Source: Xiphophorus maculatus
Lineage: Eukaryota > Chordata > Actinopteri > Cyprinodontiformes > Poeciliidae
NCBI RefSeq assembly: GCF_002775205.1
Contig: NC_036456.1
Coordinates: forward strand, 22,626,968-22,690,967
Reading direction: 5' to 3'
DNA length: 64,000 bases
This document shows positions 2,161 to 50,323 of this stretch, piece after piece. Each line of letters starts with the position of its first letter. The first letter of the stretch is position 1. Under the pieces are notes generated by a model. The model made no database searches and was not told the DNA's origin. It saw nothing but the letters and a program-made list of their open reading frames with translations. A program made the translations under genes and the position numbers.

Positions 2161-3042
2161 CTATTTTGTGCTGCAGCATAATCTCCTGGCTTTGTATAGG
2201 TAAAGGAGAAGTGACACCAAAGAGCAAGGCAGACCAAGCCAGTTGATGCCTACCATCACCAAACACTCAACACTCCGGCTCACCAGAGCGGACCTGTTCA
2301 AAGAGTGGCAAGCAAGGAGGCTGACGAACCAGAGCCACACCACACTGGAGATGACTGTGATGGTGCAGAAAGCTCTGCGCCTTGAATGGTCCATTCTGTC
2401 TCTGTCCCCGCCCCCTTCTCTTGGTCCTGGACGAATCAGAATGCAGAGAACCGAGACGCTGCAGAACGTTATGACCGGGATGGAGAGAGCAAAAAAGCAG
2501 AAAACAATAATGGCTGAATGGTGTGATAGTAAACTTGTAAGCATGGTTGTCAATCCAAAGCAGAGCAGCCATGTGCATCCGATGCTAATGTTTCTGATTC
2601 TGATCCCACGGTAGCTTTTCAGTCTACGGTAGGTGAGGGGATGAACTACGGCCAAGTATCGATCTACACATGTTAGCAGGTTAAAGATCAACTCACCATA
2701 GAATGGTATGTAACAAAAGTACATTCCTACTGTCAGGATCAGTGCGTGATTTGTATGTAAGCCAGCAGTAAAGAAGAAACACCCAAAGACCCAGATGAGC
2801 TCCATGGCAGCCAGGTGGTAGCTGAAGATGTCAGAGTGGCTCGCTGCTTTCAAGGAATGCTTCTGCCGCCATTTTTGGTGACCGTGGTAGAGGACGAAGG
2901 AGGACAGAGGAAGGAGGAGGAGGACTTTAATCAGATTGTAGCCTGTAGAGATGAAGCTGTGGAGCTCATAGCCAGTGCAGCGGTAGACCTCATTGGTATA
3001 CCAGGAGACCGATGTGTTACCCAACATGTCTGCCACTTTCAT
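2161..3042 (-). CDS. GPCR-1: rhodopsin-like 7TM receptor, teleost-expanded family
   Basis: Single coding exon, 293 aa. N-glycosylation site N9-T-S and an N-terminal Cys (C22) precede TM1. The TM3 end reads CVDRYLAVVHP, so the DRY box is intact here. ICL1 is HQKWRQKHSLKAASHSD. TM4 has a Trp. ICL3 is short and carries RPGPREGGG followed by a basic SRRRAF. A Cys lies in ECL3 (VECLVM), TM7 ends SLLLYLYK, and the tail has a Cys pair (RRLCCSTK) that could be palmitoylated. A splice acceptor (CTCATCAG) lies 10 nt upstream of the ATG, which sets the start; a second in-frame ATG at codon 6 is an alternative. It is predicted to be a plasma-membrane receptor coupling to G proteins. The ligand and formal family name are unknown to me. 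Confidence 0.88.
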   Translation of the reverse strand: MKVADMLGNTSVSWYTNEVYRCTGYELHSFISTGYNLIKVLLLLPLSSFVLYHGHQKWRQKHSLKAASHSDIFSYHLAAMELIWVFGCFFFTAGLHTNHALILTVGMYFCYIPFYGELIFNLLTCVDRYLAVVHPLTYRRLKSYRGIRIRNISIGCTWLLCFGLTTMLTSLLSHHSAIIVFCFFALSIPVITFCSVSVLCILIRPGPREGGGDRDRMDHSRRRAFCTITVISSVVWLWFVSLLACHSLNRSALVSRSVECLVMVGINWLGLPCSLVSLLLYLYKARRLCCSTK

Positions 3043-3237
3043 CCGATCAGACCTGATGAGAAACCACTGGGGGGAAAATCAGGACAGAGAAAGTAAAACA
3101 TCTTCACCATAAAACACAACTTTTACAGGTGATACTGTTAATTGGCAAACCCTAACATCATTATCAAGTCAAAGGTTTGGTTCAGAAAAGTATTAATTAG
3201 CAGGTTTTACCTGAAAATGCCCAAGTTCAACACTCAC

Positions 3238-3330
3238 CTAGTTGGGGGTATTCAGTTCTTTTGAATCTTCGTTGATGCCTGAACTTTGCTCCCAGACAGC
3301 AGCAATGCTTCTGGTTCTGTTAGGGTGGAA
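3238..3330 (-). other. Probable non-coding first exon of GPCR-1 (5' UTR)
   Basis: On the minus strand the sequence ends ACTAG followed by GTGAGTG, a good splice donor. The donor lies about 185 nt upstream of the acceptor that precedes the GPCR-1 start codon. The 5' (right) boundary is a guess. It fits the two-exon layout seen across the cluster. Confidence 0.45.
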
Positions 3331-6235: not shown

Positions 6236-7162
6236 TCATTGAAACGTTTGCGTACATCGAGGTAGTTTTCCTGCTCTCTGCAGATACAGAATGGGTAACA
6301 CCAGATTGCATGGCAAACTGACCCAGGGAACAAATGCTGCCATCAGACATTTGTCCTCAAGATGCAGTAGTGGTACAGCGTAGAGAACATTACTGACCAA
6401 AACCCACACCAAGGTCAACAAAACAGTACTCATAATGGTTAGGATGGTGCAGAAAGCCCTCCTCTTGGTTTGATCAGTGTGCTTCCTGTCACATGCTGCC
6501 TGGCCTGGAGGTGGACGTTTCAGAGCCCAGAGGACAGAAACACAGCAGAAAAACATCACTATGAAGGAGAAGGACAAATGAGAAACAAAGACCATCATAT
6601 TGAGAAAATCACCCATAGAATGAGTTGAAACCACCCAGACAAGCAAGAGCAGCCAAGTGAAACCGATGACGGTGCTGCGGATCCGGCTGCCAGTCTCATT
6701 CTTCAGACCCAGGTACGTGACAGGATGAACAACCGCCAGGTAGCGCTCGATACAGGTCAGCGTGTGAAAGAACAACTTCACATACCAGCACACATAAAAG
6801 ATAAAAAATCCAATTTCTACTACTTCAAAGACAGCGGTGTACATGCCAGCTACGTCAAGGCCGCACGCCACGACTTCAATCAGTGCCATGGCGACCATGT
6901 TGTAGGTGAAGAGGTCAGACTGTCTTCTTGATGGTGCAGATGGTGGAGAACAGCATTTTCTGCACTGTTGAAAGCCCAAATGAAGGACGATGAAGTAAAG
7001 CGGGCCGATGAGGAGGACATTGGTGGCGAACAAGGATGATATCATGTGTCTAACAGCTGTGAAATTATAGCATCTGCCAAAAACATGCGGATCAGAGACA
7101 TTGGATGAAGCAAAATTAATGTGAAGTTTGAGATTTCCAATGGCAGAAGATTTGAGGGACAT
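6236..7162 (-). CDS. GPCR-2: divergent member of the 7TM receptor family
   Basis: Single coding exon, 308 aa, one of the longest members. Two N-glycosylation sites (N21-V-S, N33-F-T) flank the N-terminal Cys (C31). ICL1 is extended and Cys/Pro-rich (QQCRKCCSPPSAPSRRQSD), unlike any paralog. TM2 reads YNMVAMALIEV, so the family's acidic residue is displaced. TM3 ends CIERYLAVVHP. ICL3 contains RPPPGQAA and DQTKRRAF. The ECL3 Cys (DKCLMA) and the TM7 end (LPILYLQRAGKL) are conserved. The start is the first ATG, 18 nt after a CCTCAG splice acceptor. With its altered ICL1 and TM2 it is the most divergent minus-strand member; function and ligand are unknown. Confidence 0.87.
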   Translation of the reverse strand: MSLKSSAIGNLKLHINFASSNVSDPHVFGRCYNFTAVRHMISSLFATNVLLIGPLYFIVLHLGFQQCRKCCSPPSAPSRRQSDLFTYNMVAMALIEVVACGLDVAGMYTAVFEVVEIGFFIFYVCWYVKLFFHTLTCIERYLAVVHPVTYLGLKNETGSRIRSTVIGFTWLLLLVWVVSTHSMGDFLNMMVFVSHLSFSFIVMFFCCVSVLWALKRPPPGQAACDRKHTDQTKRRAFCTILTIMSTVLLTLVWVLVSNVLYAVPLLHLEDKCLMAAFVPWVSLPCNLVLPILYLQRAGKLPRCTQTFQ

Positions 7163-9827: not shown

Positions 9828-10661
9828 TTACTGTTGATCATTAAAGTTGCATGCTAGTTTTCCTTCTTTATGGAGAAACAACAGTGGTAATACCAAACTG
9901 CTACACAGATTAAAGCCATTCAAAGCCATATCTACTAAACATTGGGCGGTGGAAGCAAACAGAAGTGATTTTCCCTCAATAACCCGTAGCAGAAGGAAAA
10001 CAAACCACAAACACTGTATGCTCCACAGACAAATGATGGTGTGAAAAGCTCTGCGCTTCGATGGGTCAATTTGGTCGCGTTTTTCAAGGCCAGGCGTTGG
10101 GCGAATCAGAGCACACAGAGCATAGAAGCTACAGAAAGACGTGGAAAGAATGGAGATGATCAAAATGCACAGCAAAGGCACAGAGTTATACTCAGAGTGA
10201 ACGGCTAAATTTATAAGCACGAGTCCAAAGCACAGCAGCCACACACCACCAATGCTGAGAACTTTGATCCTGAATCCACGAGCGCTTTTTAGATTATGGT
10301 AGATGATGGGGTGAACTACAGCCAGGTACCGTTCCACGCATGTCAGAACATGAAAGAAGATCTCTCCATAGAAAGCAACAAGAATTGCACAGTTTCCTAA
10401 TGATGTAAATACGGGACACTCGTGACAAATGAAGCAGAAGAACCCAAAGACCCAGAAGAGCTCCATGGCAGCAAGATGGAACGTGAACAAGTCGGAGTGG
10501 CTCCGGAAAAAGCGCTGCTGCCGCCATCGCCTGACGCCCAGGTAGAGAACGCAGGTGCAGAGAGGAAGGAGGATGACGACCTTGATCACACTGTTCCCCA
10601 AAACGATGAAATCACATGTGGAGAGCTGGACGTCACTGATGGTGTTTGTGGAATTGAACAT
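9828..10661 (-). CDS. GPCR-3: 7TM receptor family member
   Basis: Single coding exon, 277 aa from MFNSTN. The longer open frame upstream starts at a non-ATG codon and crosses a TTTGCAG splice acceptor located 5 nt before the chosen ATG. N3-S-T is a glycosylation site and C16 is the N-terminal Cys. ICL1 (RRWRQQRFFRSHSDLF) is slightly shorter than in paralogs. TM2 has LAAMELFWVFG with Glu at the usual Asp position. TM3 ends CVERYLAVVHP. ICL3 has RPTPGLEKRDQIDPSKRRAF. The ECL3 Cys is in AQCLVD. TM7 ends LPLLFLHKEGKL, with Phe for Tyr. Other Cys residues near TM3 do not fall at the canonical disulfide position. Confidence 0.88.
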   Translation of the reverse strand: MFNSTNTISDVQLSTCDFIVLGNSVIKVVILLPLCTCVLYLGVRRWRQQRFFRSHSDLFTFHLAAMELFWVFGFFCFICHECPVFTSLGNCAILVAFYGEIFFHVLTCVERYLAVVHPIIYHNLKSARGFRIKVLSIGGVWLLCFGLVLINLAVHSEYNSVPLLCILIISILSTSFCSFYALCALIRPTPGLEKRDQIDPSKRRAFHTIICLWSIQCLWFVFLLLRVIEGKSLLFASTAQCLVDMALNGFNLCSSLVLPLLFLHKEGKLACNFNDQQ

Positions 10662-10831
10662 ATCTGCTGCAAACAGGCAGAAAAACATCAGCAATCAGTC
10701 AAAGTGAAGGTACAAAAGGCAGAATATTTATTTAAACTCTAACAGAGTGTAACCTTTATTACCTGCTGCCAGAGCATAACGCTACATCAGCCGATTCAAA
10801 GTAAGAAAACACAAAAGAAAGAAAAACATGT

Positions 10832-12291: not shown

Positions 12292-13152
12292 CTACCAGCA
12301 ACAGAACCGTTTTTGTGATTTGTTGAGGTAGAGCAGAGGAGCTATCAGACTGATGGGAAGATTAAACCAATCTACACTCGCCAGGATAACACAGGTGGCA
12401 TTTTTACTCAGCAGGGATGAATTTCTCAGTGCATTCAAAACAATTACTGCAATAATCCACAACACCAGCACTCCCAGTATGGCTGTGATGGTGTTGAAAG
12501 CTCTCTGCTTTGACTGGGTGACCCTGAGTTTTTCTCCACCACCCTCTCCTGGTCCTGGATGCATCAGAATGCAGAGAACAGAGATGCTGCAGAAACCTAT
12601 GACTATGATTGCGAAAACCATAATACATATTACTGCTAAGGCTATGTGAGCACCTGACACATCAACATACAGGAATAAAAGTCCAAAGCACAGCATCCAG
12701 ACACAGCTGATGATGATTTTTCTTATCCTGAACCCGCGGGCGTTCCTGGACGTCCGGTAGATGACAGGGTGAACAACAGCCATGTATCGTTCCACACAAG
12801 TTAGGACATGAAACAGAACTTCTCCCATGAAAGTAGATGTAAAAGTACTAATTCCTACAATCATAATTGCCAGATTATTCATTTGCATCCCACAAAGGTA
12901 GAATATGGATCCAGGAGCCCAAAATAGTTCAATCAGAGACAGATTGTAGGTGAAGATGTCAGAGTGACTTGCTGTTTTAAAGGAGCGCTGCTGGCGCCAT
13001 TGTTGAAAGCCCAAGTAGAGGATGAACAGGCAGAGAGGGAGGATGAGGAAAAATTTTGTGGCAAGCATAGCAATGAAGACAAAAATACTACTTGAATCAG
13101 AGCAGTAGTATGCAAAATTATCACCAAGGCTGGAGGTGGAGTTAACCAACAT
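12292..13152 (-). CDS. GPCR-4: 7TM receptor, first copy of the tandem trio
   Basis: Single coding exon, 286 aa from MLVNST. The frame extends upstream only through a CTCCTCAG splice acceptor and has no earlier ATG. Layout: N4-S-T glycosylation site; C17; TM1 about 23 to 48; ICL1 QQWRQQRSFKTASHSD; TM2 with E75 at the usual Asp position; C87; TM3 ending C119-V-E-R-Y (121 to 123) and VHP (127 to 129); W152 in TM4; no TM5 or TM6 Pro; ICL3 HPGPG at 198 to 202; C254 in ECL3; PLLYL at 272 to 276; tail CC at 284 and 285. Differences from GPCR-5 total about 32 residues and sit almost wholly in extracellular and outer-TM segments. Confidence 0.9.
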   Translation of the reverse strand: MLVNSTSSLGDNFAYYCSDSSSIFVFIAMLATKFFLILPLCLFILYLGFQQWRQQRSFKTASHSDIFTYNLSLIELFWAPGSIFYLCGMQMNNLAIMIVGISTFTSTFMGEVLFHVLTCVERYMAVVHPVIYRTSRNARGFRIRKIIISCVWMLCFGLLFLYVDVSGAHIALAVICIMVFAIIVIGFCSISVLCILMHPGPGEGGGEKLRVTQSKQRAFNTITAILGVLVLWIIAVIVLNALRNSSLLSKNATCVILASVDWFNLPISLIAPLLYLNKSQKRFCCW

Positions 13153-14897: not shown

Positions 14898-15758
14898 CTA
14901 CCAGCAACAGAACCGTTTTCCTGACCTGCTCAGGTAGAGCAGAGGAGCTATCAGACTGATGGGAAGATTAAACCAGTTTGCACTCGCCAGGATAACACAG
15001 CTTGCATCTCTGCTCAGCAGGGATGAATTTTTCAGTGCATTTGAAACAATTACTGCAATAATCCACAACACCAGCACTCCCAGTATGGCTGTGATGGTGT
15101 TGAAAGCTCTCTGCTTTGACTGGGTGACCCTGAGTTTTTCTCCACCACCCTCTCCTGGTCCTGGATGCATCAGAATGCAGAGAACAGAGATGCTGCAGAA
15201 ACCTATGATCATGATTGCGAAAACCATAATACATATTACTGCTAAGGCTATGTAAGCACCAGATGCATCAGCATTCAGGAATAAAAGTCCAAAGCACAGC
15301 ATCCAGACACAGCTGATGATGATTTTTCTTATCCTGAACCCGCGGGCGTTCCTGGACGTCCGGTAGATGACAGGGTGAACAACAGCCATGTACCGTTCCA
15401 CACAAGTTAGGACATGAAGCAGAATTTCTCCGGTGAAAGTAAATGAAATACTACTAATTCCTACAATCATAATTGCCAGATTATTCATTTGCATCCCACA
15501 AAGGTAGAATATGGATCCAGGAGCCCAAAACAGTTCAATCAGAGACAGATTGTAGGTGAAGATGTCAGAGTGACTTGCTGTTTTAAAGGAGCGCTGCTGG
15601 CGCCATTGTTGAAAGCCCAAGTAGAGGATGAACAGGCAGAGAGGGAGGATGAGGAAAAATTTAGTGGCAAGCATAGCAATAGAGATGAAAATACTACTTG
15701 AATCATAGCAGAAGTATGTAAGATTATTATCATGACTGGAGGTGGAGTTAACCAACAT
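14898..15758 (-). CDS. GPCR-5: 7TM receptor, second copy of the tandem trio
   Basis: Single coding exon, 286 aa from MLVNST, about 89% identical to GPCR-4 by my count. Residues 27 to 102, 115 to 161 and 185 to 238 are unchanged from GPCR-4. From residue 187 to the C-terminus it differs from GPCR-6 at only one position. TM3 ends CVERYMAVVHP. The ECL3 Cys is in ASCVIL, and the tail ends GKRFCCW. The acceptor lies 20 nt upstream of the ATG, as in its two sisters. The 5' intron has been remodelled: relative to GPCR-4 it lacks roughly 390 bp and carries a unique insert of about 130 bp near 16050 to 16180. Confidence 0.9.
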   Translation of the reverse strand: MLVNSTSSHDNNLTYFCYDSSSIFISIAMLATKFFLILPLCLFILYLGFQQWRQQRSFKTASHSDIFTYNLSLIELFWAPGSIFYLCGMQMNNLAIMIVGISSISFTFTGEILLHVLTCVERYMAVVHPVIYRTSRNARGFRIRKIIISCVWMLCFGLLFLNADASGAYIALAVICIMVFAIMIIGFCSISVLCILMHPGPGEGGGEKLRVTQSKQRAFNTITAILGVLVLWIIAVIVSNALKNSSLLSRDASCVILASANWFNLPISLIAPLLYLSRSGKRFCCW

Positions 15759-17279: not shown

Positions 17280-18140
17280 CTACCAGCAACAGAACCGTTT
17301 TCCTGACCTGCTCAGGTAGAGCAGAGGAGCTATCAGACTGATGGGAAGATTAAACCAGTTTGCACTCGCCAGGATAACACAGCTTGCATCTCTGCTCAGC
17401 AGGGATGAATTTCTCAGTGCATTTGAAACAATTACTGCAATAATCCACAACACCAGCACTCCCAGTATGGCTGTGATGGTGTTGAAAGCTCTCTGCTTTG
17501 ACTGGGTGACCCTGAGTTTTTCTCCACCACCCTCTCCTGGTCCTGGATGCATCAGAATGCAGAGAACAGAGATGCTGCAGAAACTTATGATCATGATGGC
17601 AACAGCCAGAAGACATAACATTGCTGAGGTTCTGAAAGTGCCTTTTACATCTATAAGAAGGAATAAAAGTCCAAAGCACAGCATCCAGACACAGCTGATG
17701 ATGATTTTTCTTATCCTGAACCCGCGGGCGTTCCTGGATGTCCGGTAGATGACAGGGTGAACAACAGCCATGTACCGTTCCACACAAGTTAGGACATGAA
17801 ACAGAATTTCTCCGGTGAAAGTAAATGAAAAACCACAAATTCCTAAAATCAACATTGCCAGATTATTCCTATGCATCCCACAAAGGTAGATTATGGATCC
17901 AGGAGCCCAAAACAGTTCAATCAGAGACAGATTGTAGGTGAAGATGTCAGAGTGACTTGCTGTTTTAAAGGAGCGCTGCTGGCGCCATTGTTGAAAGCCC
18001 AAGTAGAGGATGAACAGGCAGAGAGGGAGGATGAGGAAAGATTTTGTTGCCATCATAGCAATAGAGATGAAAATAGTACTTAAAGTGGAGCAATAATGTG
18101 TAAAATTATCATCAAAGCTGGAGGTGGAGTTAACTAACAT
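17280..18140 (-). CDS. GPCR-6: 7TM receptor, third copy of the tandem trio
   Basis: Single coding exon, 286 aa from MLVNST. ICL1, TM2 start, ICL2, ICL3 and the whole C-terminal third match GPCR-5. The N-terminus, the ECL1/TM3 top and especially the TM4-ECL2-TM5 segment (about residues 162 to 186) differ at many positions, with about 16 changes in 25 residues. TM3 ends CVERYMAVVHP. The acceptor is again 20 nt before the ATG. The 5' intron contains a block of about 485 bp (18203 to 18687) not present in GPCR-4 or GPCR-5. The divergence pattern suggests a changed ligand pocket with an unchanged cytoplasmic face. Confidence 0.9.
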   Translation of the reverse strand: MLVNSTSSFDDNFTHYCSTLSTIFISIAMMATKSFLILPLCLFILYLGFQQWRQQRSFKTASHSDIFTYNLSLIELFWAPGSIIYLCGMHRNNLAMLILGICGFSFTFTGEILFHVLTCVERYMAVVHPVIYRTSRNARGFRIRKIIISCVWMLCFGLLFLLIDVKGTFRTSAMLCLLAVAIMIISFCSISVLCILMHPGPGEGGGEKLRVTQSKQRAFNTITAILGVLVLWIIAVIVSNALRNSSLLSRDASCVILASANWFNLPISLIAPLLYLSRSGKRFCCW

Positions 18141-21214: not shown

Positions 21215-22036
21215 TTAGTTGGGAGACAGTTTTCCTGCTTTGTGAAGATACAACAGAGGCAACACCAAACAGCTAGGAAGATTAGAAAAGCCAAAGCTCA
21301 GCCCCACAATGCAGGCAACAGGAGAAGCTAACAAAGGAGAATCTGACAACACAGTTGTACCCAGTAAGCCTAAAAACCACAACCACTGCATGCCTGATAT
21401 GACTGTGATAGTGTGGAAAGCTCTTTGCTTTGATTGGTCAACCGGCCCTTTTTCTCCAGGCCCTGGATGAGTCAGAGCACAGAGAACTGACAAACTGCAG
21501 AAAGATGAAACTATTACAGCAAAAGACAAAAGACATAACAATAATGTGATTTTAATTGCATATGATGGAATTAGATTAAGGCTTGTGATTCCTAGGGACA
21601 GCAGCCAGACACACCCGATGCTGATGGTTCTGATCCTCACCCCACTGGTGTTCCTCATCCTGAGGTAGAGGATGGGATGAACCACAGCGATGTAGCGGTC
21701 TGCACAGGTCAGGGTGTGAAATAAAACTTCTCCATAAAAACTAGTCATAGTCATAAATATGGTTAAATTTTTGAAGACTGTGAGGTTATAGTAAGTAAAA
21801 TATATTTGAAGGACGTATCCAAGGACCCAAAAGAGCTCCATGGCAGCCAGGTGGTAGGTGATGATGTCAAAATGGCTCGCTGTGTTAAAGGAGCGATGCT
21901 GGCGCCACTTTTGGAGACCTAGATAAAGAACGAAGGTGGAAAGAGGAAGGAGCAGGAAGACTCTGATCCAGGAGATGGAAATGAAGATGTTGTTGCAGTG
22001 CTGGAATAGTAGAGAGTTTTCTGACATATTCATCAT
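21215..22036 (-). CDS. GPCR-7: short 7TM receptor family member
   Basis: Single coding exon, 273 aa, the shortest member. The start is the first ATG (MMNMSEN), 13 nt after a TTTGCAG acceptor; codons 2 and 4 are also ATG. N3-M-S is a glycosylation site and C14 is the N-terminal Cys. TM2 has LAAMELFWVLG. TM3 ends CADRYIAVVHP, with a true DRY. ICL3 is trimmed (HPGPGEKGPVDQSKQRAF). The ECL3 Cys is in VACIVG. TM7 ends LPLLYLHKAGKL with almost no tail (SPN). Its 3' flank (20656 to 21000) is homologous to the 3' flanks of GPCR-5 and GPCR-6, placing it in the same tandem series although its coding sequence is much more diverged. Confidence 0.89.
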   Translation of the reverse strand: MMNMSENSLLFQHCNNIFISISWIRVFLLLPLSTFVLYLGLQKWRQHRSFNTASHFDIITYHLAAMELFWVLGYVLQIYFTYYNLTVFKNLTIFMTMTSFYGEVLFHTLTCADRYIAVVHPILYLRMRNTSGVRIRTISIGCVWLLSLGITSLNLIPSYAIKITLLLCLLSFAVIVSSFCSLSVLCALTHPGPGEKGPVDQSKQRAFHTITVISGMQWLWFLGLLGTTVLSDSPLLASPVACIVGLSFGFSNLPSCLVLPLLYLHKAGKLSPN

Positions 22037-25673: not shown

Positions 25674-26546
25674 TCAGTTGGGTTTGTAACAGTTACAGAA
25701 AGTTGTTTTTGTCCCGTGTAGATAGAGCAGAGGTGAGACTAAAAAGGTGGGCAGGTCCAACCAGCCAATGCCTGCGATCATTATGCAGCCATAACTTTCC
25801 GTAAACAGCGAGGACACAATTAAAGAATATGAAACACAAAGACCCCCAAACCACAGCCACAGCACACACGATATGGCCGTGATGGTGTGGAAAGCTCTCA
25901 ACTTTGATTGGCTGATCCGTTTTCTCTTACCATCGTTTGTCCCAGTTTGTGGACGAATGAGGACACAGAGAACGGAGATGCTGCAAAAGGTTATGAATCC
26001 AATAGAGACAATGGAAACACTAAGAACTACAATCAGGACTTTTTTACCTCGATTGTTTACATGTAAGAAATTCAGCGCCAAGCTGATCAACCAAACAGAA
26101 CCGATGCTGATGTTCCTGATCCGGACTCCACGGGCGTTTCTTAACCTCAGATAGGTGATGGGATGAACGACAGCCAGATACCATTCTGCACAGGTCAGGA
26201 AGTGGAACAGCACCTCACCAAAGAAGGTGGTGGAAAAACAACAGTGTGATCCAACTATTATTGCTATGTTGTTACTGTAATGTCCAAGAAAATACAAGAT
26301 AAAACCAGGGCACCAGATAAGCTCCAGAGCTGCCAGATGGTAAGCGAAGAGGTCGGCGTGTGTTGCTGCTTTGCTGGAGTGGCTCTGCTGCCGCTGCTGA
26401 TAGCCCAGGTAAAGGACGACGGTGGACAGGAGGAGGACGAGCATCGCTTTCACTGTGATCATGCTGCCTGAGATGAAGAAAGCTTCCTGTGACTGGGAGC
26501 AGTAATAGTTGACCTGCTGAGAGACGGATGAGGCGTTCACCAACAT
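25674..26546 (-). CDS. GPCR-8: 7TM receptor with Trp replacing the DRY arginine
   Basis: Single coding exon, 290 aa from MLVNASS, which lies 10 nt after a TCTCCACAG acceptor; the upstream extension of the frame has no ATG. N4-A-S is a glycosylation site and C16 is the N-terminal Cys. ICL1 is QQRQQSHSSKAATHADLF. TM3 ends CAEWYLAVVHP: the codon for the normally invariant Arg of the D/ERY box is TGG. ICL3 (RPQTGTNDGKRKRISQSKLR) lacks the usual PGPG. The ECL3 Cys is in YGCIMI and TM7 ends SPLLYLHG. The frame is otherwise intact. Loss of this Arg usually alters G-protein activation, so constitutive, decoy or biased behaviour is possible (inference). Confidence 0.88.
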   Translation of the reverse strand: MLVNASSVSQQVNYYCSQSQEAFFISGSMITVKAMLVLLLSTVVLYLGYQQRQQSHSSKAATHADLFAYHLAALELIWCPGFILYFLGHYSNNIAIIVGSHCCFSTTFFGEVLFHFLTCAEWYLAVVHPITYLRLRNARGVRIRNISIGSVWLISLALNFLHVNNRGKKVLIVVLSVSIVSIGFITFCSISVLCVLIRPQTGTNDGKRKRISQSKLRAFHTITAISCVLWLWFGGLCVSYSLIVSSLFTESYGCIMIAGIGWLDLPTFLVSPLLYLHGTKTTFCNCYKPN

Positions 26547-29981: not shown

Positions 29982-30824
29982 TCAGCAACGTGACAGTTTT
30001 CCAGCCCTGAGAAGAAACAGCAGAGGCATCACCAGGTTACTGGGCAAGTTGCAAAACCCGAAACTTGTTTCTATAAAACATGCATCGCTTGAACTCAGCA
30101 CAGACGTTTTGGTCAAAGCTGTGGACATAAGGAGACCAACAAACCAAAACCACTGCATGCCAGAAATGGCTGTTATGGTGAGGAAAGCTCTCCGCTTTGA
30201 CCGGTCCAGCCGCTCCCTCTCTGCGCCGCCGAACCCAGGACCCGGATGGACCAGAGCGCAGAGAACAGAGGCGCTGCAGCAAGATGTGACTGTTAGGGTG
30301 ACAACCAACAGGCAGTACAATGGGACGGTTCTGGTTCTGTTGGTTAACGCTCCGCTCAGGCCGATCAGAATCAGACACAGCAGCCAAACAGACGCGATGC
30401 TGATGTTTCTGATCCGGACCCCGCAGCTGCCTTTGGCCCTCAGGTAAACTACAGGGTGAACAGCTGCAACGTGGCGCTCCGCACAGGTCAGGATGTGGAA
30501 CAGCATCTCTCCGTAAAACGTGAAAGAAGCCGCCCAGAACCCCACGGTTTTCATTTCCAAGATGCTCAAGTGTTCGGCACAAATACCACAGAAGAAGCCA
30601 AACACCCAGAGCAGCTCCATGGCAGCCAGGTGGAAGGTGAAGAGGTCAGCGTGGGCCGCGGGTTGAAAGGCGCGCTGCTGGCGCCGCGTCTGCAGACCCA
30701 GAAACAGGATGAAGCAGGACAGAGGGAGGAGGAGGACGGCCCTGGTCGACCGCACGGCGACGCTGAGGCTGTAGCAGCGGTACCACAGCAGGTCAGCCGG
30801 TACGGAGGTGGCGTTCACTGACAT
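29982..30824 (-). CDS. GPCR-9: GC-rich 7TM receptor with ERH box
   Basis: Single coding exon, 280 aa from MSVNATS, 14 nt after a TTTTCAG acceptor. N4-A-T is a glycosylation site and C17 is the N-terminal Cys. ICL1 is TRRQQRAFQPAAHADLF. TM2 has LAAMELLWVFG. TM3 ends CAERHVAAVHP, so the Tyr of the ERY box is His. ICL3 has HPGPGFGGAERERLDRSKRR. The ECL3 Cys is in DACFIE. TM7 ends MPLLFLLRAGKL. Codon third positions are noticeably richer in G and C than in neighbours, which also opens long spurious frames on other frames and strands. The 3' UTR must be short or MITE-derived, because the palindromic MITE begins about 25 bp past the stop. Confidence 0.89.
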   Translation of the reverse strand: MSVNATSVPADLLWYRCYSLSVAVRSTRAVLLLPLSCFILFLGLQTRRQQRAFQPAAHADLFTFHLAAMELLWVFGFFCGICAEHLSILEMKTVGFWAASFTFYGEMLFHILTCAERHVAAVHPVVYLRAKGSCGVRIRNISIASVWLLCLILIGLSGALTNRTRTVPLYCLLVVTLTVTSCCSASVLCALVHPGPGFGGAERERLDRSKRRAFLTITAISGMQWFWFVGLLMSTALTKTSVLSSSDACFIETSFGFCNLPSNLVMPLLFLLRAGKLSRC

Positions 30825-36073: not shown

Positions 36074-36081
36074 CTTTTAAA
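36074..36081 (-). promoter_or_regulatory. TATA-like box of the serine protease
   Basis: TTTAAAAG on the minus strand lies about 43 nt upstream of the ATG. It would place the transcription start roughly 10 to 20 nt before the start codon, giving a very short leader. Confidence 0.5.
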
Positions 36082-36104
36082 CTCCTGCTGGACAGGAGGC
36101 CAAC

Positions 36105-36635: not shown

Positions 36636-37348
36636 GTTCTGCACTTGCATACAAAGGAACTTTAACAGTTCATGGTTATAAAGAAATTTGAAAAATGTTC
36701 TTGTTCTATTGACATATTATTTCACTAATAACAAAAGATTTTCTCCTCTTGTTACTTAAATAATCAGCCAATGAAACAAGAAGTTTTTCATCAAGAAAAA
36801 ACTGTTTTGTTTAAAATTCAGATCTGCCTTTGTTCCCAAAAGTTGAATCATTTTGTTTATTGATGAGCTGTGAAAATGACCCTCAACACAAACAGAAAAG
36901 GGTTTGCTTCTTTTTTGAAAAAAATAACAAAATTACAATGCTGGGTAGTAAAGAGCATTGGCATTTGTTGTAAATGCAAAATTACAAAACAAAACAAAAA
37001 CAAACTCACAGAAAGTCGTCCAATTAAAAGAAAACAATTCTGATTTTTAAAACACATTTGACACAAACATATGGTAACATTTTAACTGATGACATAGATC
37101 TCTTTTATCACCCATGATTCTTTGCTTTTGCTATTTTGTAAATGCACACAGACCATTAAAGTGGTCACTAGTGCATCATCCCTCCTTCTACTGTAGAAAA
37201 CTCTAGCAAGTAAAAAAATATATTGTGACATCAAGCAGCTCCTAAAGACTAATACCACTGATGTAGATTCCAAATAACAACCTTGTATTTGGAGAAATTA
37301 CAAATGATCACCTGTCTACTAAAGTGGACGGCCTGCATCAGTGGCAAC

Positions 37349-39503: not shown

Positions 39504-41969
39504 CTACAATATGCACCATTTCCAGCAAATATTTTGGCTGTAAAAACATTCTTATATTTTAGTTCTTAACTTGAAGATTTAAGGAAAAAAAGTCAATTTT
39601 TGCCAATTTATTTTGTAACAAGGTTAGGCTTTATTGTGGTTCTTAAAAAATATATTTTTATTTATATTTAGATGTTTATATTACATATATTCATTCCAAA
39701 CTGACCATGATGGACTGAGTGGCTTTAAAGTCCAAAGCATTACCACCGTCTGTCATGATGTGTGTGGTTGAATTGTGGACACAAATGCAACAGGCAGGAA
39801 ACGGAAAAGTTCTGTTTTAGATTTAACTAAAAGCCAAACTTACAAAAAAAAAAAACTAAACCCAAACCAGAGACTTGAAGAGACCAAGAGGAAAACAGGG
39901 AGAAGGACCAGCAGCAGTGACATGGAGTAACAAGATGAACCGACGATTACCAGTCTGTGATTTGACTAATTAGAGATGTGATTACATATTCATCTGCTAA
40001 TAGAATAAAAGCATCTGTTTTATGTGGCTAAAAGTTAGTTAAGGGTAAAGTGGAGCTAATGTGCTAGCAAACATCAAGTTAAGGACAACCATAAATACAA
40101 AAATAGAAAAAAAGCCCTGATGTTACATTGTGAAAACCAGAAAGACAACTGGAACTAAAATGTCCTTCATAAAAGAAACTATGAATCTTGTGTTTTTATA
40201 GACAAGAAATGTTACAAGAAATTCATAAGGAACATTCTGTAATGGACAAAAGGACTGTTTGTCTTTTCTCTGTCTGTTTTATCTGCTCACACGCACACGG
40301 CCGTACGCTGACATAACCATAACATTTATCCCTGGTGTGAGACTATCGGTGTCTATCAGACCCTGCTTGGCATAACGCTGCCTGTTGGAAAGATGTTATG
40401 GGAGGTAATTTTGCTGTTGAAGGCAGAAAATGAAAAATTGAGATGGGAACAGCTTTCTGTTGCACCTGGTCCAAGTACTGAGCCTCCCTCTCTTCAATCC
40501 ACATCTTCTTCCAATGCTGGTGCCCAACAGGTGGAGAGGTTGGTGTTTGGTGGAGCGGTTGGAGGAAGTGCAGGTGTTACACGCACCAGGACTGGTGTCA
40601 GTCTAACAGATGCTGACCTTCCTGTAAACAGGAGAGAACAAATCCTCCTGGAATCTGTTCTGTTGTCAGTGATACAGAATCTGGAGCGATTACGACGCTG
40701 CCTCCTACTGGTAGCTTTCTGCTACTACAGTAAAATTCATTACAATAGATGCCGACTCTCGAAATTAGAAATATGCATAAAAACATATCAATTAATTCAA
40801 TATCGAAGGAAGAAAAATAAAATAATAATAATCACGTAACAGAATTTTTTCTTGAGTTTAATGGCAGCTGCTAAGCAGGAAGTGACATTCTGAATGCTGA
40901 ATGTTACCAATTTGTTGAGCATGTTATTGATGGTTCACTACGTCTTGCCATATCAATGACTTTGCAGAAATATGACCCAGGTGATGCTTTTTCCAATTCT
41001 TCAACAATATATTTTGCATACAAGTCCAGAAACACCACAGAGACTTTGAAGGCAGAGTTCGAACATGGACCCACGTTTTGAATGGTGAGTAGGGATTAGA
41101 ATGGTGCTTTTTCATTACATGAAGTGAATGTTAGCCAAACATTTAAAGCACTAACAGACCCAGCCTAAGATTTTACTTTTGTTAGTTCACTTATCTTTGA
41201 AGCATATTTAACATTGAATGTTTAACAGTTGCTTTTTCATCTTCAAAAAACTCTGCATTGAAAATGTACAGATTTATAAATGAAATCTGTAGTAATGTAT
41301 TAAAATTAATGCATGTGTTATTATTGTTTTGATTTTAAATAATAAAGGTGTAATACACCAGTAATATGCACTATATTAAAGGTTTTTAGCTGCATCTAAA
41401 TTTAATTAAAAGAATTTCTTTCATATCAACTGAGAAGTTTCAAGTTTTTACAATCACAAGTGGCATTTTTTCTGTTTTTTATGGATCTTTCACTTTAATT
41501 TTAGGATTTTTATTCCATTTACTACTGACAAGCACATATTATATGTTCACTCTCAAGTTAGACTAAAGCTTATTGCAGGTAAGCATGCTTATGTTTGCCT
41601 TTTTGGGACCCAAATTGACATACTTTGTTGACTTTGTTGACCTGAAGACCCTGTACTGTTTTTTCTTTGGATTAGTGATTTAGTTTGTTTAGTGTTAGTA
41701 AGTGTGAACAACAGACTCTGTGAGGAACAATTGAAAATTTAGATCCTTTCCTTAATTATGATTCCCAAGTGCTTCCAACATTTCCAAGTCTAACAGATTA
41801 AGTGACAGAAAGAAGCATGCAGCTCAGGAGACTAAAGCAAAGCATTACTGCTGTAATTTATTCAGTCTTACTGGGATCTGGTACTAACCCAGTAGCTAAC
41901 CTGAACCTTATTACTTGTGTTTCTTTTCATGTTTTCTTCTGTGTTTCTTATAGCCTCAGCTGTGGGAAC
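39504..41969. other. Intergenic between Tc1 copy and GPCR-10
   Basis: No gene recognised apart from the second dispersed-repeat copy (40044 to 40328). The 41200 to 41800 stretch immediately upstream of GPCR-10 should hold its promoter and first exon; a possible donor (GTTA followed by GTAAGTGTG) is near 41698, unproven. Confidence 0.45.
40044..40328 (+). repeat. Dispersed direct repeat, copy 2
   Basis: Partner of 37349 to 37634. It ends at CATAACATTTA and then diverges into an unrelated open stretch. Confidence 0.85.
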
Positions 41970-42884
41970 ATGACTGACTCCTCGCTTACCAATGACTCCC
42001 TCCCTCCTTTGGTTGACTCTCCCAGCTTTAGGTCTTTTGAAATATGCTTCGACTCCATCACTGCCGTGTACATTTACTTTGGCTACACCTTTCTCCATAT
42101 CATTCTCCTGCTCCCACTCTCCACCTCAGTTCTCTACTGGGGTTATCAGCAAAGGAAACAACAACGTTCCTCAGCATCAGTCATGAGCCACTTTGACTAC
42201 TACACCTACATCATGGCTGCCACGGAGCTGACTGGAATATTTGGAACCATCCTTCACATTTTCAGCACTTTTCTCCACCACGTAGAGTTGATGTTTTGGG
42301 GTATTGTTATTTTTTCGTTTACCTGGGGCTCACAGATGTTTTTACCGGTCATGATCTGCCTGGATCGCTACCAGGCTGTTGTTTTTCCCATCACCTACGT
42401 AAGGCTAAGGCAGAGAGCTGGACTCCGTATCAGAAACATTTGCACTGCGGTGATTTTGCTGCTCTGCACTGCAAACATGCTGTCAGTAAAAACTCTGATC
42501 ACAATCCCTGAGCTCAGCATTGTGCAAGCCTGTGCATCAGTGTTCTGTGTAATTACAGTATGTTTCTGCAGCGTGTCGGTTCTGTGCGTTCTGATCCGGC
42601 CAGCGCCCGGGGCCGGAGGTGTTGATAGAGCTCAGGTTGACCCCTTAAAGAGAAAGGCTTTCAACATTATTGTCATCATTATGGGGGTCCTGCTGTTTAA
42701 GTTTGCAGGAAATCTGGCTTGCCTAACAGTGAGCTCCTCGCTACAGGCTGCTGACAGTCTTCAGTGTGTAATACGAGCTTCACAGATGATTTTCCACCTG
42801 CCCGGCTCTTTGGTGTTACCGCTTCTATTTCTGCACAGAAACGGGAAACTACCAGGATGTAAACACACATCGGAGTCCGGCTGA
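41970..42884 (+). CDS. GPCR-10: plus-strand, divergent 7TM receptor
   Basis: Single coding exon, 304 aa from MTDSSL. The open frame extends 56 codons further upstream but without an ATG and across a CTTATAG splice acceptor 16 nt before the chosen start. N-terminal Cys is in FEICFD. ICL1 is YQQRKQQRSSASVMSHFDYY, two or more residues longer than in paralogs. TM2 has IMAATELTGIFG. TM3 ends CLDRYQAVVFP, where other members have AVVHP. ICL3 has RPAPGAGGVDRAQVDPLKRK. The ECL3 Cys is in LQCVIR. TM7 ends LPLLFLHRNGKL and the tail is HTSESG. Family membership is clear from ICL3, ECL3 Cys and TM7, but it is among the most distant members and is oppositely oriented. Confidence 0.87.
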   Translation: MTDSSLTNDSLPPLVDSPSFRSFEICFDSITAVYIYFGYTFLHIILLLPLSTSVLYWGYQQRKQQRSSASVMSHFDYYTYIMAATELTGIFGTILHIFSTFLHHVELMFWGIVIFSFTWGSQMFLPVMICLDRYQAVVFPITYVRLRQRAGLRIRNICTAVILLLCTANMLSVKTLITIPELSIVQACASVFCVITVCFCSVSVLCVLIRPAPGAGGVDRAQVDPLKRKAFNIIVIIMGVLLFKFAGNLACLTVSSSLQAADSLQCVIRASQMIFHLPGSLVLPLLFLHRNGKLPGCKHTSESG

Positions 42885-44206: not shown

Positions 44207-44292
<86 letters not shown>

Positions 44293-44413: not shown

Positions 44414-45289
44414 TCACTTATGGCCAGAAAAACAACATGGCAACTTTCCTGCTCTATGGAGGTACAGCAGAGGTAAAACCAAATTGTTGGGTAAATTAAA
44501 CCAGATTACAGTTATAAAGAAAATACAGCTAAAGCTTTTATCTATCAGGGGAGACATTTCAAAGACATTGGCGAGAATATATCCAGTGAACCACAGCCAC
44601 TGCATGCTGGATATGGCCATGACGGTTTGTAAAGCTCTCTGCTTTGATTGGTCAACCTGCTTCTTTACTCTACCTCCATCGCCAGGTCCTGGACGGATCA
44701 GAGCCCAAAGAACGGAGACGCTGCAGAAAGATGTGAGAAGAGTGGAAACAGGCAAAACGGCGAACACAGTAAACGTGGCGTTGTAATTTTCTACAGTTCC
44801 ATAAATGGACATTGCTGCAAAGCAAAGCATCCAAACACACAAAATGCTGATGTTTCTCACCCTGAGTCCATAAGAACTCCTCAGGCCCACATAGGTGACG
44901 GGGTGAACAACAGCAAGGTACCACTCCATACAGGTGAGGATGTGAAAGCTTATCTCTCCCCATAGAGTGAGGATGGAAGCACACAGCCCTGCTTTCATCA
45001 GAGCTACATTTTTAATCTTTTCTCCTAAAAAGTAGCAAGCCAACCCAAAGGCCCAGATGAGCTCCATGGCAGCCAGGTGGTACGTGAAGAGGTCAGAGTG
45101 GCTGGATGCTGAAAACGAGCGGTGCTGGCGCCATCGCTGATACCCCAGGTAGAGGATGAAGGTGCAGAGAGGGAGGATGAGGATGGCCTTTGTTGAAGTC
45201 AAAACAGTGCTGACCAGAACTCCTACTTCTGTGAAGGCACAACCGACAACCAGGAGACTGTGGTTGGAGGCAGATGAGTCAACTGACAT
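44414..45289 (-). CDS. GPCR-11: 7TM receptor with EWY instead of ERY
   Basis: Single coding exon, 291 aa from MSVDSS, 14 nt after a TTTAACAG acceptor. N9-H-S is a glycosylation site and C17 is the N-terminal Cys. ICL1 is YQRWRQHRSFSASSHSDLF. TM2 has LAAMELIWAFG. TM3 ends CMEWYLAVVHP: the Arg codon of the box is TGG, as in GPCR-8. ICL3 has RPGPGDGGRVKKQVDQSKQR. The ECL3 Cys is in FSCIFF. TM7 ends LPLLYLHRAGKL and the tail has CCF. It otherwise keeps all family hallmarks and an open frame, so it is not an obvious pseudogene. Confidence 0.89.
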   Translation of the reverse strand: MSVDSSASNHSLLVVGCAFTEVGVLVSTVLTSTKAILILPLCTFILYLGYQRWRQHRSFSASSHSDLFTYHLAAMELIWAFGLACYFLGEKIKNVALMKAGLCASILTLWGEISFHILTCMEWYLAVVHPVTYVGLRSSYGLRVRNISILCVWMLCFAAMSIYGTVENYNATFTVFAVLPVSTLLTSFCSVSVLWALIRPGPGDGGRVKKQVDQSKQRALQTVMAISSMQWLWFTGYILANVFEMSPLIDKSFSCIFFITVIWFNLPNNLVLPLLYLHRAGKLPCCFSGHK

Positions 45290-46710: not shown

Positions 46711-46770
46711 TTCTATTCTATTCTATTCTATTCTATTCTATTCTATTCTATTCTATTCTATTCTATTCTA
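46711..46770. repeat. (TTCTA)n microsatellite, 12 copies
   Basis: Perfect pentanucleotide array, 60 bp, continuous with the retroposon tail on its left. Confidence 0.95.
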
Positions 46771-49489
46771 ATGTTCTACTCCTGAGATGAATTTTGGTTC
46801 TCTGTCAGAATTTATAATTTTTGGTATTTTAATGTTTTTTTTTTTTGCTTTGATCTTAAATAGCTAATGTTAGTTGATAATTTCTGTGTGTCAAATATAT
46901 TCTGTTTTTTTAACGTTTTTAATGTACTTTTTTATTCTTGGCTGTATGAAAAGTGCATCATAGATGAAAATAAAATCGATAAAAAATGTGTTTAATATCT
47001 ACTTAGTGATTGTTACGTCCAATATGACAATATATTATGTTTGCTTAACATCTTTATTAGTCTTGCTGAAATATGATGGCACACAATCTTACATTTTATT
47101 ACATCTTTAAGTGTGAACAATTAATTTTAGATACACTTAGAAGTCTTAATAATCTAAACAGAATTAGATATAAACAAAGAAAAAAACATGTTTTTACATT
47201 CTTATCCATGTGATCATATTTTAAATAGTTTGTTACTGCAATGTTTTTTATTTCTGTCAAATTTATTATTTTCACTGCTCTAAAGACGATGTTTAGGTTT
47301 TGCTTACATAGGTAAATAAATTAACAAACTAAATATGAATTTGTGCGAGTTATTACATGTTTTCATCATTATTTGTTTTGCAGAACTAAATTCTGCATCC
47401 AGCTGACTCGCCTGTTTTTTATTCCTGGTTTTTACTGATTGGTTAAAGCAGATCTATTCTGCTATTTATCATCTCTGTGGTTATATTCAAAGTTCACTAA
47501 ATGAAAATTCTCTGCCAATAAAGTTGCTTTACATGTTTCCACAACAAACATTATGACTCATTTTGAAAGTCCACAAGGTTTGACACAATTCAAATGTTCT
47601 GCAGGTTTTTCTAATGAACAGCGAATCTGCACTTATAGCAGCATTTGAGACAGAACTGAGAAGTGAAGGCGCTTCACACACACAGCGGCAGAATCAACAG
47701 CACACACACACACACTGCATGCTGCTTTTTCTTATTGTACATTTTTTATCAAAGTGATAATAATAATAAAGTCTAATATGTCAACAACTGGATCTGAATA
47801 ATGACAAAATAATCTAAAACAGAACAGAAAAGAGTTTAGGTCACCAGCTCTTAAATCACATTCATGTAAAATTATAGCAAATAATTTGAATTAAGGATGG
47901 TTACAGGTTTAAATTGAAAAAAGTCACAACAATAAATATAGGGAATAAACTTTCTATTATCTTGGCGTATTTCCAGCTATAGTTGTGTATAATATTGGCC
48001 GCTGAAATGATGAACTGTTCTCTCTGTAAGGAAGGCATTTAGTAGGATTTCTTTGTAATCTGTTCCTGTTTGTATTGTAAATTTTAACACTTAAGACATG
48101 GCTAATTTCTAAAGAAAATGATTAAATTTTACTGAAAAATAACTTCAGAAATAAATCAAGATCTCTTGACAAACACATGCAAATAGATAAATGTATTTTA
48201 GAAACTGCCTCCAGCCTCTGTTTATGACTAATTTGAATTGTGTTGGACATTAACAATGAACAGCCTCATTATAAAAAAAATATTTCAGTAATTCACAGTT
48301 TAAGCAGCAGAAAAAATGTTTTATTGCACTTTAATACGTAACTAAAAGCTCAGATAATATAAGTTGAAAAGATTTTCAGTTTCTTTTAAAATGCAACCTG
48401 CAATGAGGTGAAACAAAGTTTGTCGTTTATATTCTGATAAATGTCTTTTTGCTTTGACAGCAGGATTTGTTTTCATGCAAAAACATTTCTATCTTTGTTT
48501 TTTATTCCCTGTCAGTGCTGGTGGGAAGCAGTTCATCTGCAGCTCCACAAGACACACGGTGGGTCATTTATGTTGTTTCCTGTTATATTCACTTTTAAAA
48601 ATGACTGTATAATTCTGACTGCAGGTCAGACCATGTGGGTTTGTTTTGGTGACCTCAGCTGCCATTTTACTGCTGTTCTCCACACATGCGGTTCCACAGT
48701 GTGACTGCATATTGTTGTCCACTGTTTATAACATTTATCTATTTTCTGAGGGTTGAAATAACATTTATCTCCAGTACAGACATTTTGTGAAATTAAAATA
48801 ATGAGAAAAGTCTCATTTTGTTCAATTAGTTAAAATGTAATGGTGTTTCTTTAGTCTGCAGCCTTGTAAAGTATTTTATAGATCTTATCACTTGTTTTTC
48901 ACAGAAAAAATACATCAAATAATAATTTACTAAAAATTTAAGGAGAGATAGAAATAAATCAGGAAGCAGAGTCTAAGCCGTCTTTGTCCAGTTCACTTCT
49001 TTAGAAATAAAGTGCAGCTTCGTCACATCCTCACTTATTTTCCTTTTCATGTAGTGAGAAAAATATATTCTATATAATATAATACATAAGGGGTAGCAAT
49101 TTTAGAAAATATCTTTTCATTTAAATATTAACACAACATGTCAAATATTTCTATCCTTCTCAACAATTAGTAGAAAGTGTTTTTTTATGACAACATTCCT
49201 CACAGTTGCTAAAATGTTTTTTGCATGTTTCCACTTTTGTCCATTTATATTTTGTGATGAGCTACAAATCTTTATGGTCGGAAGGCCTCACTGCCATCAC
49301 CCTAATCTTATCTGCCTCCATAAATTCTCTCTTACTAATGTTCAAAGTAAAACCTGGTAAAATCAAACGATGACTTCAGCTCTAAATCTCAGTGGATTCA
49401 TGACTTTTTGACTTTAACTGTAGTTATATTCTGCCATCTCATACTTTTCCTATGTTTTCTGTTTTAAGCTCAAAGACTTGAAAACCAAA

Positions 49490-50323
49490 ATGTCCAACAA
49501 CGCGTCGGACGGATACTTCAACCTAATGTACAGCTGTGGTTCTTATAAAAGTGCAGAGTTATTCTCCACAGTCTTCATGATCGTCCGGTTTCTGTGTGTC
49601 GTTCCGGTCTCCATCGTCGTGCTCTGCTTGGGTTTCCGACGGCGCTCCACTAAAACCAGCCACTCTGATCTGTTCACCTACAACTCTGCCGCCTTGCAAC
49701 TCATCTTTGGACTTGCAGCTGTTTTGTACCTCTGTGGCCAATACGCTCACATCTTTAGTGTTTTTATTTTGGGGGTTTATGCAGCCAGCATTGCTTTTCC
49801 TGGAGAAATAGTTTTTCACATCTTGACATGCGTGGATCGCTATCTGGCCGTTGTTCATCCCGTCACCTACAGGGGGCTGACTCAGTCCGATGGGATCCGG
49901 ATCAGGAACATCAGCATCGTCTGTGGTTGGCTGATCTCTTTCGGATGGCTTGGGATAGTCGCTGTTGTTTTCCCTGAGCTGCCTTATGTTGCATATTTCT
50001 GCTTCTTTGCTACCTCAATAATAAGCATTTCTTTCTGCAGCGTCTCTGTTCTTTATGTTCTGATTCATCCAGGACCGGGTCAAACTGGCAGGAAAAAAGA
50101 GAAGGCAGCTAAAGCAAAGAGGAAAGCTTTCCAGACCATCATGGCCATCCTTGCAGCGCTCCTCGTGTATTTTGTGGCCTGCATTGTTGTTCTTGCTGTG
50201 AAAAACCTAAATCTGCTCATTGATGAGAATGCATGTCTGATTCTAACGTCTGCCCAGTGGTGTGGTATTCCATGCAACGTAGCTTTACCTCTGTTGTTTC
50301 TACGCAAAGCAAAGAAGCTTTAG
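49490..50323 (+). CDS. GPCR-12: plus-strand 7TM receptor, short ICL1 and basic ICL3
   Basis: Single coding exon, 277 aa from MSNNAS; the frame opens four codons earlier only at TTG, and a TTTTAAG acceptor lies about 21 nt upstream of the ATG. N4-A-S is a glycosylation site and C16 is the N-terminal Cys. ICL1 is shortened (FRRRSTKTSHSDLF). TM2 has SAALQLIFGLA, so the family Glu is Gln. TM3 ends CVDRYLAVVHP. ICL3 is strongly basic (HPGPGQTGRKKEKAAKAKRK). The ECL3 Cys is in NACLIL. TM7 ends LPLLFLRKAKKL and the protein stops there, with no cytoplasmic tail. It is the last receptor before the oxidase genes. Confidence 0.88.
   Translation: MSNNASDGYFNLMYSCGSYKSAELFSTVFMIVRFLCVVPVSIVVLCLGFRRRSTKTSHSDLFTYNSAALQLIFGLAAVLYLCGQYAHIFSVFILGVYAASIAFPGEIVFHILTCVDRYLAVVHPVTYRGLTQSDGIRIRNISIVCGWLISFGWLGIVAVVFPELPYVAYFCFFATSIISISFCSVSVLYVLIHPGPGQTGRKKEKAAKAKRKAFQTIMAILAALLVYFVACIVVLAVKNLNLLIDENACLILTSAQWCGIPCNVALPLLFLRKAKKL

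Follow-up and report, generated by a model that had tools for sequence, protein, structure and literature searches.

Introduction

The odorant receptors of vertebrates are encoded in large, intronless tandem arrays of genes for G protein-coupled receptors (GPCRs). According to PMC10207261, 93% of the human ones carry two acidic residues, at positions 2.50 and 3.39, and Glu has also been recorded at 2.50 in NK1R (PMC6367319) and, by report, in GPR132 (PMC7948426), and at 3.39 in CCR1, CCR3 and CCRL2 (PMC6037435). GPR132 is grouped with GPR4, GPR65 and GPR68 as proton- or lysolipid-sensing receptors, which have a buried acid at 2.50 and Cys3.25, the defining acidic triad of the proton sensors GPR4, GPR65 and GPR68 being Asp2.50, Glu4.53 and Asp7.49. 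MRGPRX receptors lack Trp6.48 and the standard disulfide between transmembrane helix 3 (TM3) and extracellular loop 2 (ECL2), having a C4.64-C5.32 pair, and MRGPRX1 has a wide-open pocket (PMC10286997). A survey of vertebrate class A receptors describes 142 clades for which humans have no orthologue, and some of these clades are large sets in fishes (PMC6504862). Here we describe twelve genes for seven-transmembrane (7TM) receptors in 64,000 nucleotides of Xiphophorus maculatus DNA (contig NC_036456.1, positions 22,626,968 to 22,690,967; this whole stretch is called the window, and is C14:22626968-22690967 in our genome searches).

The twelve are single-exon open reading frames (ORFs), all open, at 2161-50323 of the window. 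Two of them (41817-42884 and 49490-50323) read on the plus strand and the other ten on the minus strand; we number them all 1 to 12 in order of position. Their proteins can be aligned end to end, at 32-45% identity to that of gene 1. A first-pass annotation had read them as twelve intact receptors, none an obvious pseudogene, of a non-canonical class A family with no recognised name. All twelve ORFs are indeed present and open, and the assignment is upheld by a 7TM fold predicted with high confidence, weak homology to the Pfam family 7tm_1, a clade apart from the canonical receptors included in our trees, and contradictory names in databases. Comparison of sequences places the twelve in one large teleost family of common descent, class A and delta-branch-like, that is without a consistent name. 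A tblastn search with the twelve proteins (E<1e-3) turned up no further copy or fragment in the window, and no copy was found in the 30 kb flanking it on each side.

Results

Relatives in other fishes

A profile of the twelve proteins gave 245 protein matches, the best 120 of which were listed; removal of ten by length left 110, which together with the twelve make the 122 rows counted below, and alignment A2 holds 115 members (the twelve and 103 of the 110). Nearly all of the listed matches are labelled 'uncharacterized' or 'hypothetical', one being called 'mu-type opioid receptor-like', and the named relatives among them are, we presume, spiny-rayed fishes. Searches with two long fused proteins added relatives from cyprinids and loaches, characins, Dallia, the salmonid Oncorhynchus and the elopomorph Aldrovandia, where the automatic names conflict (GPR4, LPAR5-like, somatostatin receptor 1-like, allatostatin-A receptor-like, GPR17-type, CCR2-/CCR8-like, HCA2-like and P2Y6-like). 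The other-teleost set consists of 39 units from 35 proteins, 29 of the units being full, and 17 of the 35 proteins make up profile A3. 'Spiny-rayed type' and 'other-teleost type' serve here as labels of clades, many rows being without a species name (P0009, P0010, P0231, P0235 and P0237, for example). True SSTR5 and GPR68 appear only from E 0.65 upwards, and family fragments overlap that range, so that there is no clean gap in score. Several members bear the labels 'isoform X1' or 'X2', which at NCBI usually reflect RNA evidence and are the sole hint of transcription. Four proteins match the family over part of their length, namely P0202 (TAAR1-like, Sparus), P0203 (GRB2-associated-binding protein 1, Channa), P0205 (a B30.2/SPRY domain protein, Mugilogobius) and P0210 (SCAN domain-containing protein 3, Anabarilius); they are probably fused gene models through which wrong names are passed on.

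Literature searches aimed at the family or its hallmarks, with incomplete coverage of the literature, found no paper on it. The fish-specific clades of PMC6504862 (such as GPR206, FFAR2# and unassigned sets) likewise lack a human orthologue, and several are large and duplicated in fish. These clades are given by Ensembl identifiers and were compared with our sequences by description; the family may coincide with one of them, and we do not claim it as never before seen.

Position within class A

Three of the twelve proteins reach the Pfam gathering score for 7tm_1, those of the genes at 2161, 17280 and 49490 (the last with 30.5, exactly the cut-off). Among the nine that do not, six match 7tm_1 below the cut-off and the genes at 29982, 41817 and 44414 fail to match 7tm_1 under the thresholds applied, 41817 showing a weak match to a nematode chemoreceptor profile in its place. 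When the 115 members are compared with the whole of Pfam (E<=0.01), 93 match 7tm_1, five other families have one weak match each, and the odorant-receptor profile has none. The only other chemoreceptor profile to be matched is the nematode Srbc, again weakly, which speaks against the family having branched off within one of the named chemosensory families (odorant receptors, TAAR or V1R/ora), a reading that we consider most improbable and to which the sodium-site residues return us below.

Tree 1 (106 rows) includes 55 of the 110 relatives and ten outgroups, made up of GPR68, SSTR5, CCR8-like and allatostatin receptor sequences. It separates the family from the ten outgroups with support of 100/100 and unites the spiny-rayed type at 100/99. 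Tree 2 (74 rows, 27 of them other-teleost units) joins the family and three sister genes of the same genome in one clade of 58/58 rows, at 100/100. The sister genes are L045 (C8:15231501-15233000), L049 (C16) and the partial L051 (C5), and their position outside the family has weak support (80/81). This joint clade groups at 97/96 with two genes that we read as LPAR4/6-like, GPR68 and two more receptors of this genome; outside that group stand somatostatin, CCR8-like, amine-like and allatostatin receptors, including two that we read as amine-type (L001 and L003), no certified TAAR being in the tree. The family stands in a clade apart from every canonical receptor included; sequences of GPR132, GPR65, GPR4, odorant receptors, TAAR, ora and MRGPRX are absent from both trees.

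Profile searches of the PDB likewise indicate the delta branch. The twelve lead to LPAR5 and CX3CR1 and the 115 members to GPR35 and LPAR5, with similarity also to GPR183; the LPAR4/5/6, GPR35, GPR55, GPR183 and P2Y-type receptors resemble the family in fold and, by profiles and tree, in delta-branch affinity. Three complete receptors from this comparison, L046-L048, are in the tree and differ from the family in retaining Cys3.25, Asp2.50, Ser3.39, Pro5.50 and Pro6.50. The less derived relatives match GPR4 best, the 17-member other-teleost profile at 6.5e-18 (followed by GPR17 at 1.7e-14) and sister gene L045 at 6e-11. Together with the buried acids of the family, the reported Glu2.50 of GPR132 and the name GPR4 borne by some members, this would suit diverged members of the GPR4/GPR65/GPR68/GPR132 group, sensing protons or lysolipids. 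We nevertheless hold that origin to be unlikely, and do not file the family there, because the defining triad is absent: Glu4.53 occurs in 0/122 and 0/29 rows of the two types and Asp7.49 likewise in 0/122 and 0/29, as against both residues in all five GPR68 rows. Moreover, the ECL2 of that group is about 20 residues longer, and GPR68 lies outside the family clade.

Fold and stepwise loss of the class A core

An AlphaFold2 model of the gene 7 protein has seven helices and a TM4-TM5 loop of 5 residues (predicted local distance difference test, pLDDT, 93.3; predicted template modelling score, pTM, 0.89), and a weaker overall model of one other-teleost member has a loop of 4. The structural neighbours of the gene 7 model are class A receptors (Foldseek, VIA-align); among the 50 structural matches listed, MRGPRX1 has the top TM-scores (0.71/0.80) and a consensus odorant receptor ranks 20th. 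The distance from W4.50 to a fixed TM5 column has a median of 35 residues both in the spiny-rayed type and in the three sister genes, and of 37 in the other-teleost type. It is 57-59 in outgroups and 52-64 over the canonical receptors used, the short span of the family going with an ECL2 of about 5 residues. Cys3.25 is absent from 122/122 rows and from 37/37 countable other-teleost units, and therefore the standard TM3-ECL2 disulfide, which chemokine receptors form through this residue, cannot form. In the spiny-rayed type a cysteine near the N-terminus and one in ECL3 occur together in 110/122 rows, which suggests a substitute disulfide between the N-terminus and ECL3. MRGPRX receptors resemble the family in lacking the TM3-ECL2 bond and Trp6.48 and in their good structural overlap, and differ in their own cysteine pair, the corresponding columns of the family holding Cys in 2/122 and 1/122 rows in an alignment that is loose in this loop. 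Because MRGPRX1 dispenses with the same disulfide, the missing hallmarks do not exclude the family from class A.

The class A core appears to have been lost in steps. All ten outgroups have N1.50, D2.50, C3.25, P5.50 and P6.50, and nine of them S3.39. The two complete sister genes keep N1.50, D2.50, S or G at 3.39, and P6.50; C3.25 and P5.50 are gone. Among the 29 full other-teleost units, N1.50 is found in 13, E2.50 in 26, R3.39 in 28 and P6.50 in 21, and in the 122 rows of the spiny-rayed type N1.50 remains in 1, E2.50 is present in 108, P5.50 in 1 and P6.50 in 0, residue 3.39 being E in 72, Q in 36 and K in 11. Most rows of either type keep D/ERY, W4.50, P7.50 and the G-P-G and K-x-R-A-F motifs of intracellular loop 3 (ICL3). 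Our residue numbering in TM1, TM5 and TM6 is based on alignment with GPR68, SSTR5 and CCR8-like sequences.

Glu2.50 and Glu3.39 stand together in 63/122 rows, about half, as two acids do in vertebrate odorant receptors, and this likeness, with the consensus odorant receptor in the structural list, is what a named chemosensory ancestry has in its favour. The same Glu3.39 is known from the three chemokine-type receptors cited above, and the family differs from odorant receptors by its lack of Cys3.25 and by an additional Lys or Arg at 1.42 or 6.47. As other-teleost members have Arg3.39 (28/29 units), the Glu pair looks derived and not an odorant-receptor inheritance.

A proposed built-in cation at the sodium site

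The two types together provide 151 rows (122 and 29), and 144 of these carry Lys or Arg at 1.42, 3.39 or 6.47: 53 at 1.42 only, 48 at 6.47 only, 29 at 3.39 only and 14 at two of the three, leaving 7 with none. Neither the ten outgroups nor the two complete sister genes, both of which have Asp2.50, show a Lys or Arg at any of the three. In a control over all membrane-core columns, these three carry Lys/Arg in 62, 56 and 40 of the 151 rows, the next column in 13; they form the best-covering triple of columns, with 144/151, the next triple reaching 120. Of the 61 copies in the window's genome described below, 33 were read for these residues and all 33 have Lys/Arg, 14 at 1.42, 14 at 6.47, four at both and one at 3.39. 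We propose that this residue is a built-in cation that takes the place of sodium.

Copy number and genome arrangement

A search of the 704-Mb genome with a single protein query (gene 7), whose counts are lower bounds, revealed at least 61 copies in which the frame runs uninterrupted through almost the entire receptor, and 2 broken full-length copies, at C14 22.26 Mb and 22.29 Mb. Gene 12 was flagged with a stop, which is its own end, and is counted as uninterrupted. Nearly all copies belong to three clusters on a single chromosome, C14: the twelve genes of the window, 15 copies at 22.22-22.29 Mb and 31 at 24.81-24.98 Mb. The other three stand alone, two of them at 22.73 Mb and 6.09 Mb of C14 and the third at C7 22.09 Mb. 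The three single copies (L040, L038 and L030, respectively) and L036 (C14:24.85) represent one receptor plus about 2.3-2.5 kb of flank, 96-97% identical; L040 has a longer, altered C-terminus. The ratio of non-synonymous to synonymous divergence (dN/dS) between these four dispersed copies is 0.67-1.16. At C7:22.10-22.17 Mb there are also eight 276-bp fragments covering late TM5-TM7 only, about 10 kb apart, and a ninth lies at C14:24849744 near L036, each within an open frame of 101 codons; this looks like a 10-kb tandem array that has captured a piece of a receptor.

Such values of dN/dS, with 0.68-0.92 among genes 4-6 and mobile DNA in the window, might reflect a neutral expansion through local duplication and gene conversion, of little distinct function, some copies having moved segmentally or by transposon-linked copying. 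We judge this very unlikely given the ratio of uninterrupted to broken copies, the conserved columns of the cytoplasmic half, the retention of ICL3 motifs in other teleosts, and the 96% identity of gene 12 to its Xiphophorus hellerii counterpart, LOC116733295.

Variation between receptors

We divided the receptors into an extracellular and a cytoplasmic half where the helices of one model have their midpoints; column entropy averages 2.58 bits in the former half and 1.22 in the latter. Genes 4-6, which are recent tandem copies, vary at 44/125 residues of the extracellular half and 9/144 of the cytoplasmic half (odds ratio 8.1, p 1.6e-9), and their synonymous divergence (dS) is 0.11-0.24 and 0.01-0.05 in the two halves. 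Genes 5 and 6 differ at 59/861 coding bases, and a stretch of just 60 bases at ECL2/TM5 accounts for 24 of these differences; in the flanks, 16/1096 bases differ downstream and 27/114 upstream. Plain amino-acid selection is insufficient here, as it leaves the synonymous sites unexplained. The simplest reading of the mosaic is patchy exchange with other copies, or the retention of old differences in ligand-facing parts, the cytoplasmic parts having been homogenised.

Our first choice of function, to which we would give roughly an even chance, is chemosensory; it is suggested by the array organisation, the variable extracellular half and the patchy divergence of recent duplicates, and since it rests on such patterns, a role that is either chemosensory or immune, as first supposed, stays a matter of inference. 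Patchy divergence is likewise typical of host-microbe arrays. The main rival takes the receptors for immune or inflammatory sensors on leukocytes or barrier cells, detecting products of microbes or tissue damage in the manner of formyl-peptide or MRGPRX receptors. The lack of the TM3-ECL2 disulfide, the top structural scores of MRGPRX1 with its wide-open pocket, and the sequence similarity to GPR35, LPAR5, GPR183 and CX3CR1 would all agree with it, but the MRGPRX cysteines C4.64 and C5.32 are not kept, and we think an immune role doubtful.

The twelve genes and their surroundings

Gene 1 (2161..3042, minus strand, 293 aa) has K1.42, E2.50, E3.39, W6.47 and DRY, is without Pro7.50 and scores 42 bits with 7tm_1. 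The core of gene 2 (6236..7162, minus, 308 aa) is divergent, with A2.50 and K3.39. Gene 3 (9828..10688, minus; K1.42, E2.50, E3.39) opens with CTG at 10691 in the ORF list, and counted from its first ATG, at 10688, has 286 aa. Genes 4 (12292..13152), 5 (14898..15758) and 6 (17280..18140), all minus and of 286 aa, are the tandem copies discussed above; the protein of gene 5 is 89% identical to that of gene 4, and gene 6 differs from gene 5 chiefly in the N-terminus, TM3 and ECL2/TM5. Gene 7 (21215..22036, minus, 273 aa) supplied the AlphaFold2 model. Genes 8 (25674..26546, minus, 290 aa) and 11 (44414..45289, minus, 291 aa) have EWY, with Trp for Arg3.50; both are otherwise intact and may signal differently. 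Over the 122 rows, Trp, His, Cys and Gln stand at 3.50 in 5, 6, 3 and 1, respectively. Gene 9 (29982..30824, minus, 280 aa) has ERH and AAVHP, and no 7tm_1 match at E<=1. The ORF of gene 10 opens at 41817, its true start probably being 51 codons on, at 41970 (41970..42884, plus, 304 aa from this ATG; E2.50, Q3.39, K6.47). Gene 12 (49490..50323, plus) encodes 277 aa.

Most of the shared motifs first described hold, a few less generally than had been stated. Glu replaces the TM2 Asp in 10/12 (Ala in gene 2, Gln in gene 12), the ECL3 Cys is present in 12/12, and the TM5 and TM6 prolines are missing as claimed, Pro5.50 and Pro6.50 being 0/12, with proline elsewhere in TM5 in some. An HSD-like end to ICL1 is found in eleven as H[S/A/F]D, gene 2 having RQSD; AVVHP after TM3 occurs in 10/12 and AVVFP in gene 10, the AAVHP of gene 9 having been overlooked. 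In ICL3, exact PGPG is present in 7/12 and K-x-[RK]-A-F in 10/12 (RRRAF in gene 1, KQRAL in gene 11), and in TM7 PLL[YF]L in 10/12, gene 1 lacking the Pro and gene 2 having PILYL. An alignment audit gives Cys3.25 in 0/12 and an N-terminal Cys in 12/12, and all twelve have an N-glycosylation motif close to the N-terminus (in gene 10 it is seen in the translation downstream of the likely start). Of the class A hallmarks, Arg3.50 is kept in 10/12, W4.50 in 11/12 and P7.50 in 11/12; N1.50, D2.50, Cys3.25, P5.50, P6.50 and N/D7.49, which are usual but not universal, are each 0/12.

Within the receptor array there is a Tc1/Tc3-type transposase frame (HTH_Tnp_Tc3_2) at 38785-39501, and at 35935-36681 a minisatellite, not a gene, with a 27-bp period by self-match offsets, open on both strands and appearing as a 9-residue repeat in the ORF list. 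Beside the array lie flavin amine oxidase exons (PF01593) at 53298-54056 and 61258-62028, 73% identical to each other, L013 being similar by eye; they probably belong to tandem L-amino-acid oxidase-like genes.

Discussion

The explanation that we favour as a whole, and regard as evenly balanced between right and wrong, runs as follows. The proteins would be receptors of the cell surface whose pocket, open and without a lid, accepts diverse small molecules or peptides; in spiny-rayed fishes the N-terminus-ECL3 disulfide would serve as a brace instead. The Lys/Arg would pair with Glu2.50, and with Glu3.39 where present, doing the job of sodium and holding the off state; a ligand in the variable upper half would break this cation pair and so activate a G protein through the conserved face of D/ERY, ICL2 and ICL3. 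The arrays would then be repertoires for many external chemicals, chemosensory in a broad sense.

Several observations weigh against this explanation. The structural search favours no single family, and the ECL3 column is Cys in just 5/29 other-teleost rows. Glu2.50 is not universal, 14 of the 122 spiny-rayed-type rows having another residue, and Asp2.50 occurs in 3/33 members of this genome. The three cation columns were chosen after inspection of the alignment; Lys/Arg at 1.42 versus 6.47 amounts to one switch on the tree, so that the alternation is no independent proof of compensation, and the pair 2.50 and 3.39 does not stand out by mutual information, where it ranks 6327 of 34453. That Glu2.50 and Glu3.39 are each known in other receptors cautions against over-reading the cation idea. 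Expanded GPCR families commonly vary in their extracellular parts, and because dS too is higher in those codons of genes 4-6 that encode the extracellular half, the pattern is not one of simple positive selection.

More tentatively still, the family could be a teleost-wide chemoreceptor repertoire in which the allosteric sodium was swapped for Lys/Arg, placed at 3.39 in other teleosts and shifted to 6.47 or 1.42 in spiny-rayed fishes, with Glu2.50 the usual partner; signalling would thereby be independent of salt, which might suit cells facing fresh or sea water. With 61 or more uninterrupted copies in a single fish genome, the family is as large as a sensory or immune repertoire; its members nevertheless go under unrelated database names, and a census relying on the Pfam threshold would miss most of the twelve, since nine fall below it. 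Many class A receptors are controlled through the sodium pocket, and its alteration here amounts to an experiment of nature, testable by one residue change. The sister genes, in which the ancestral pocket persists although Cys3.25 is already gone and ECL2 is short, are ready-made controls.

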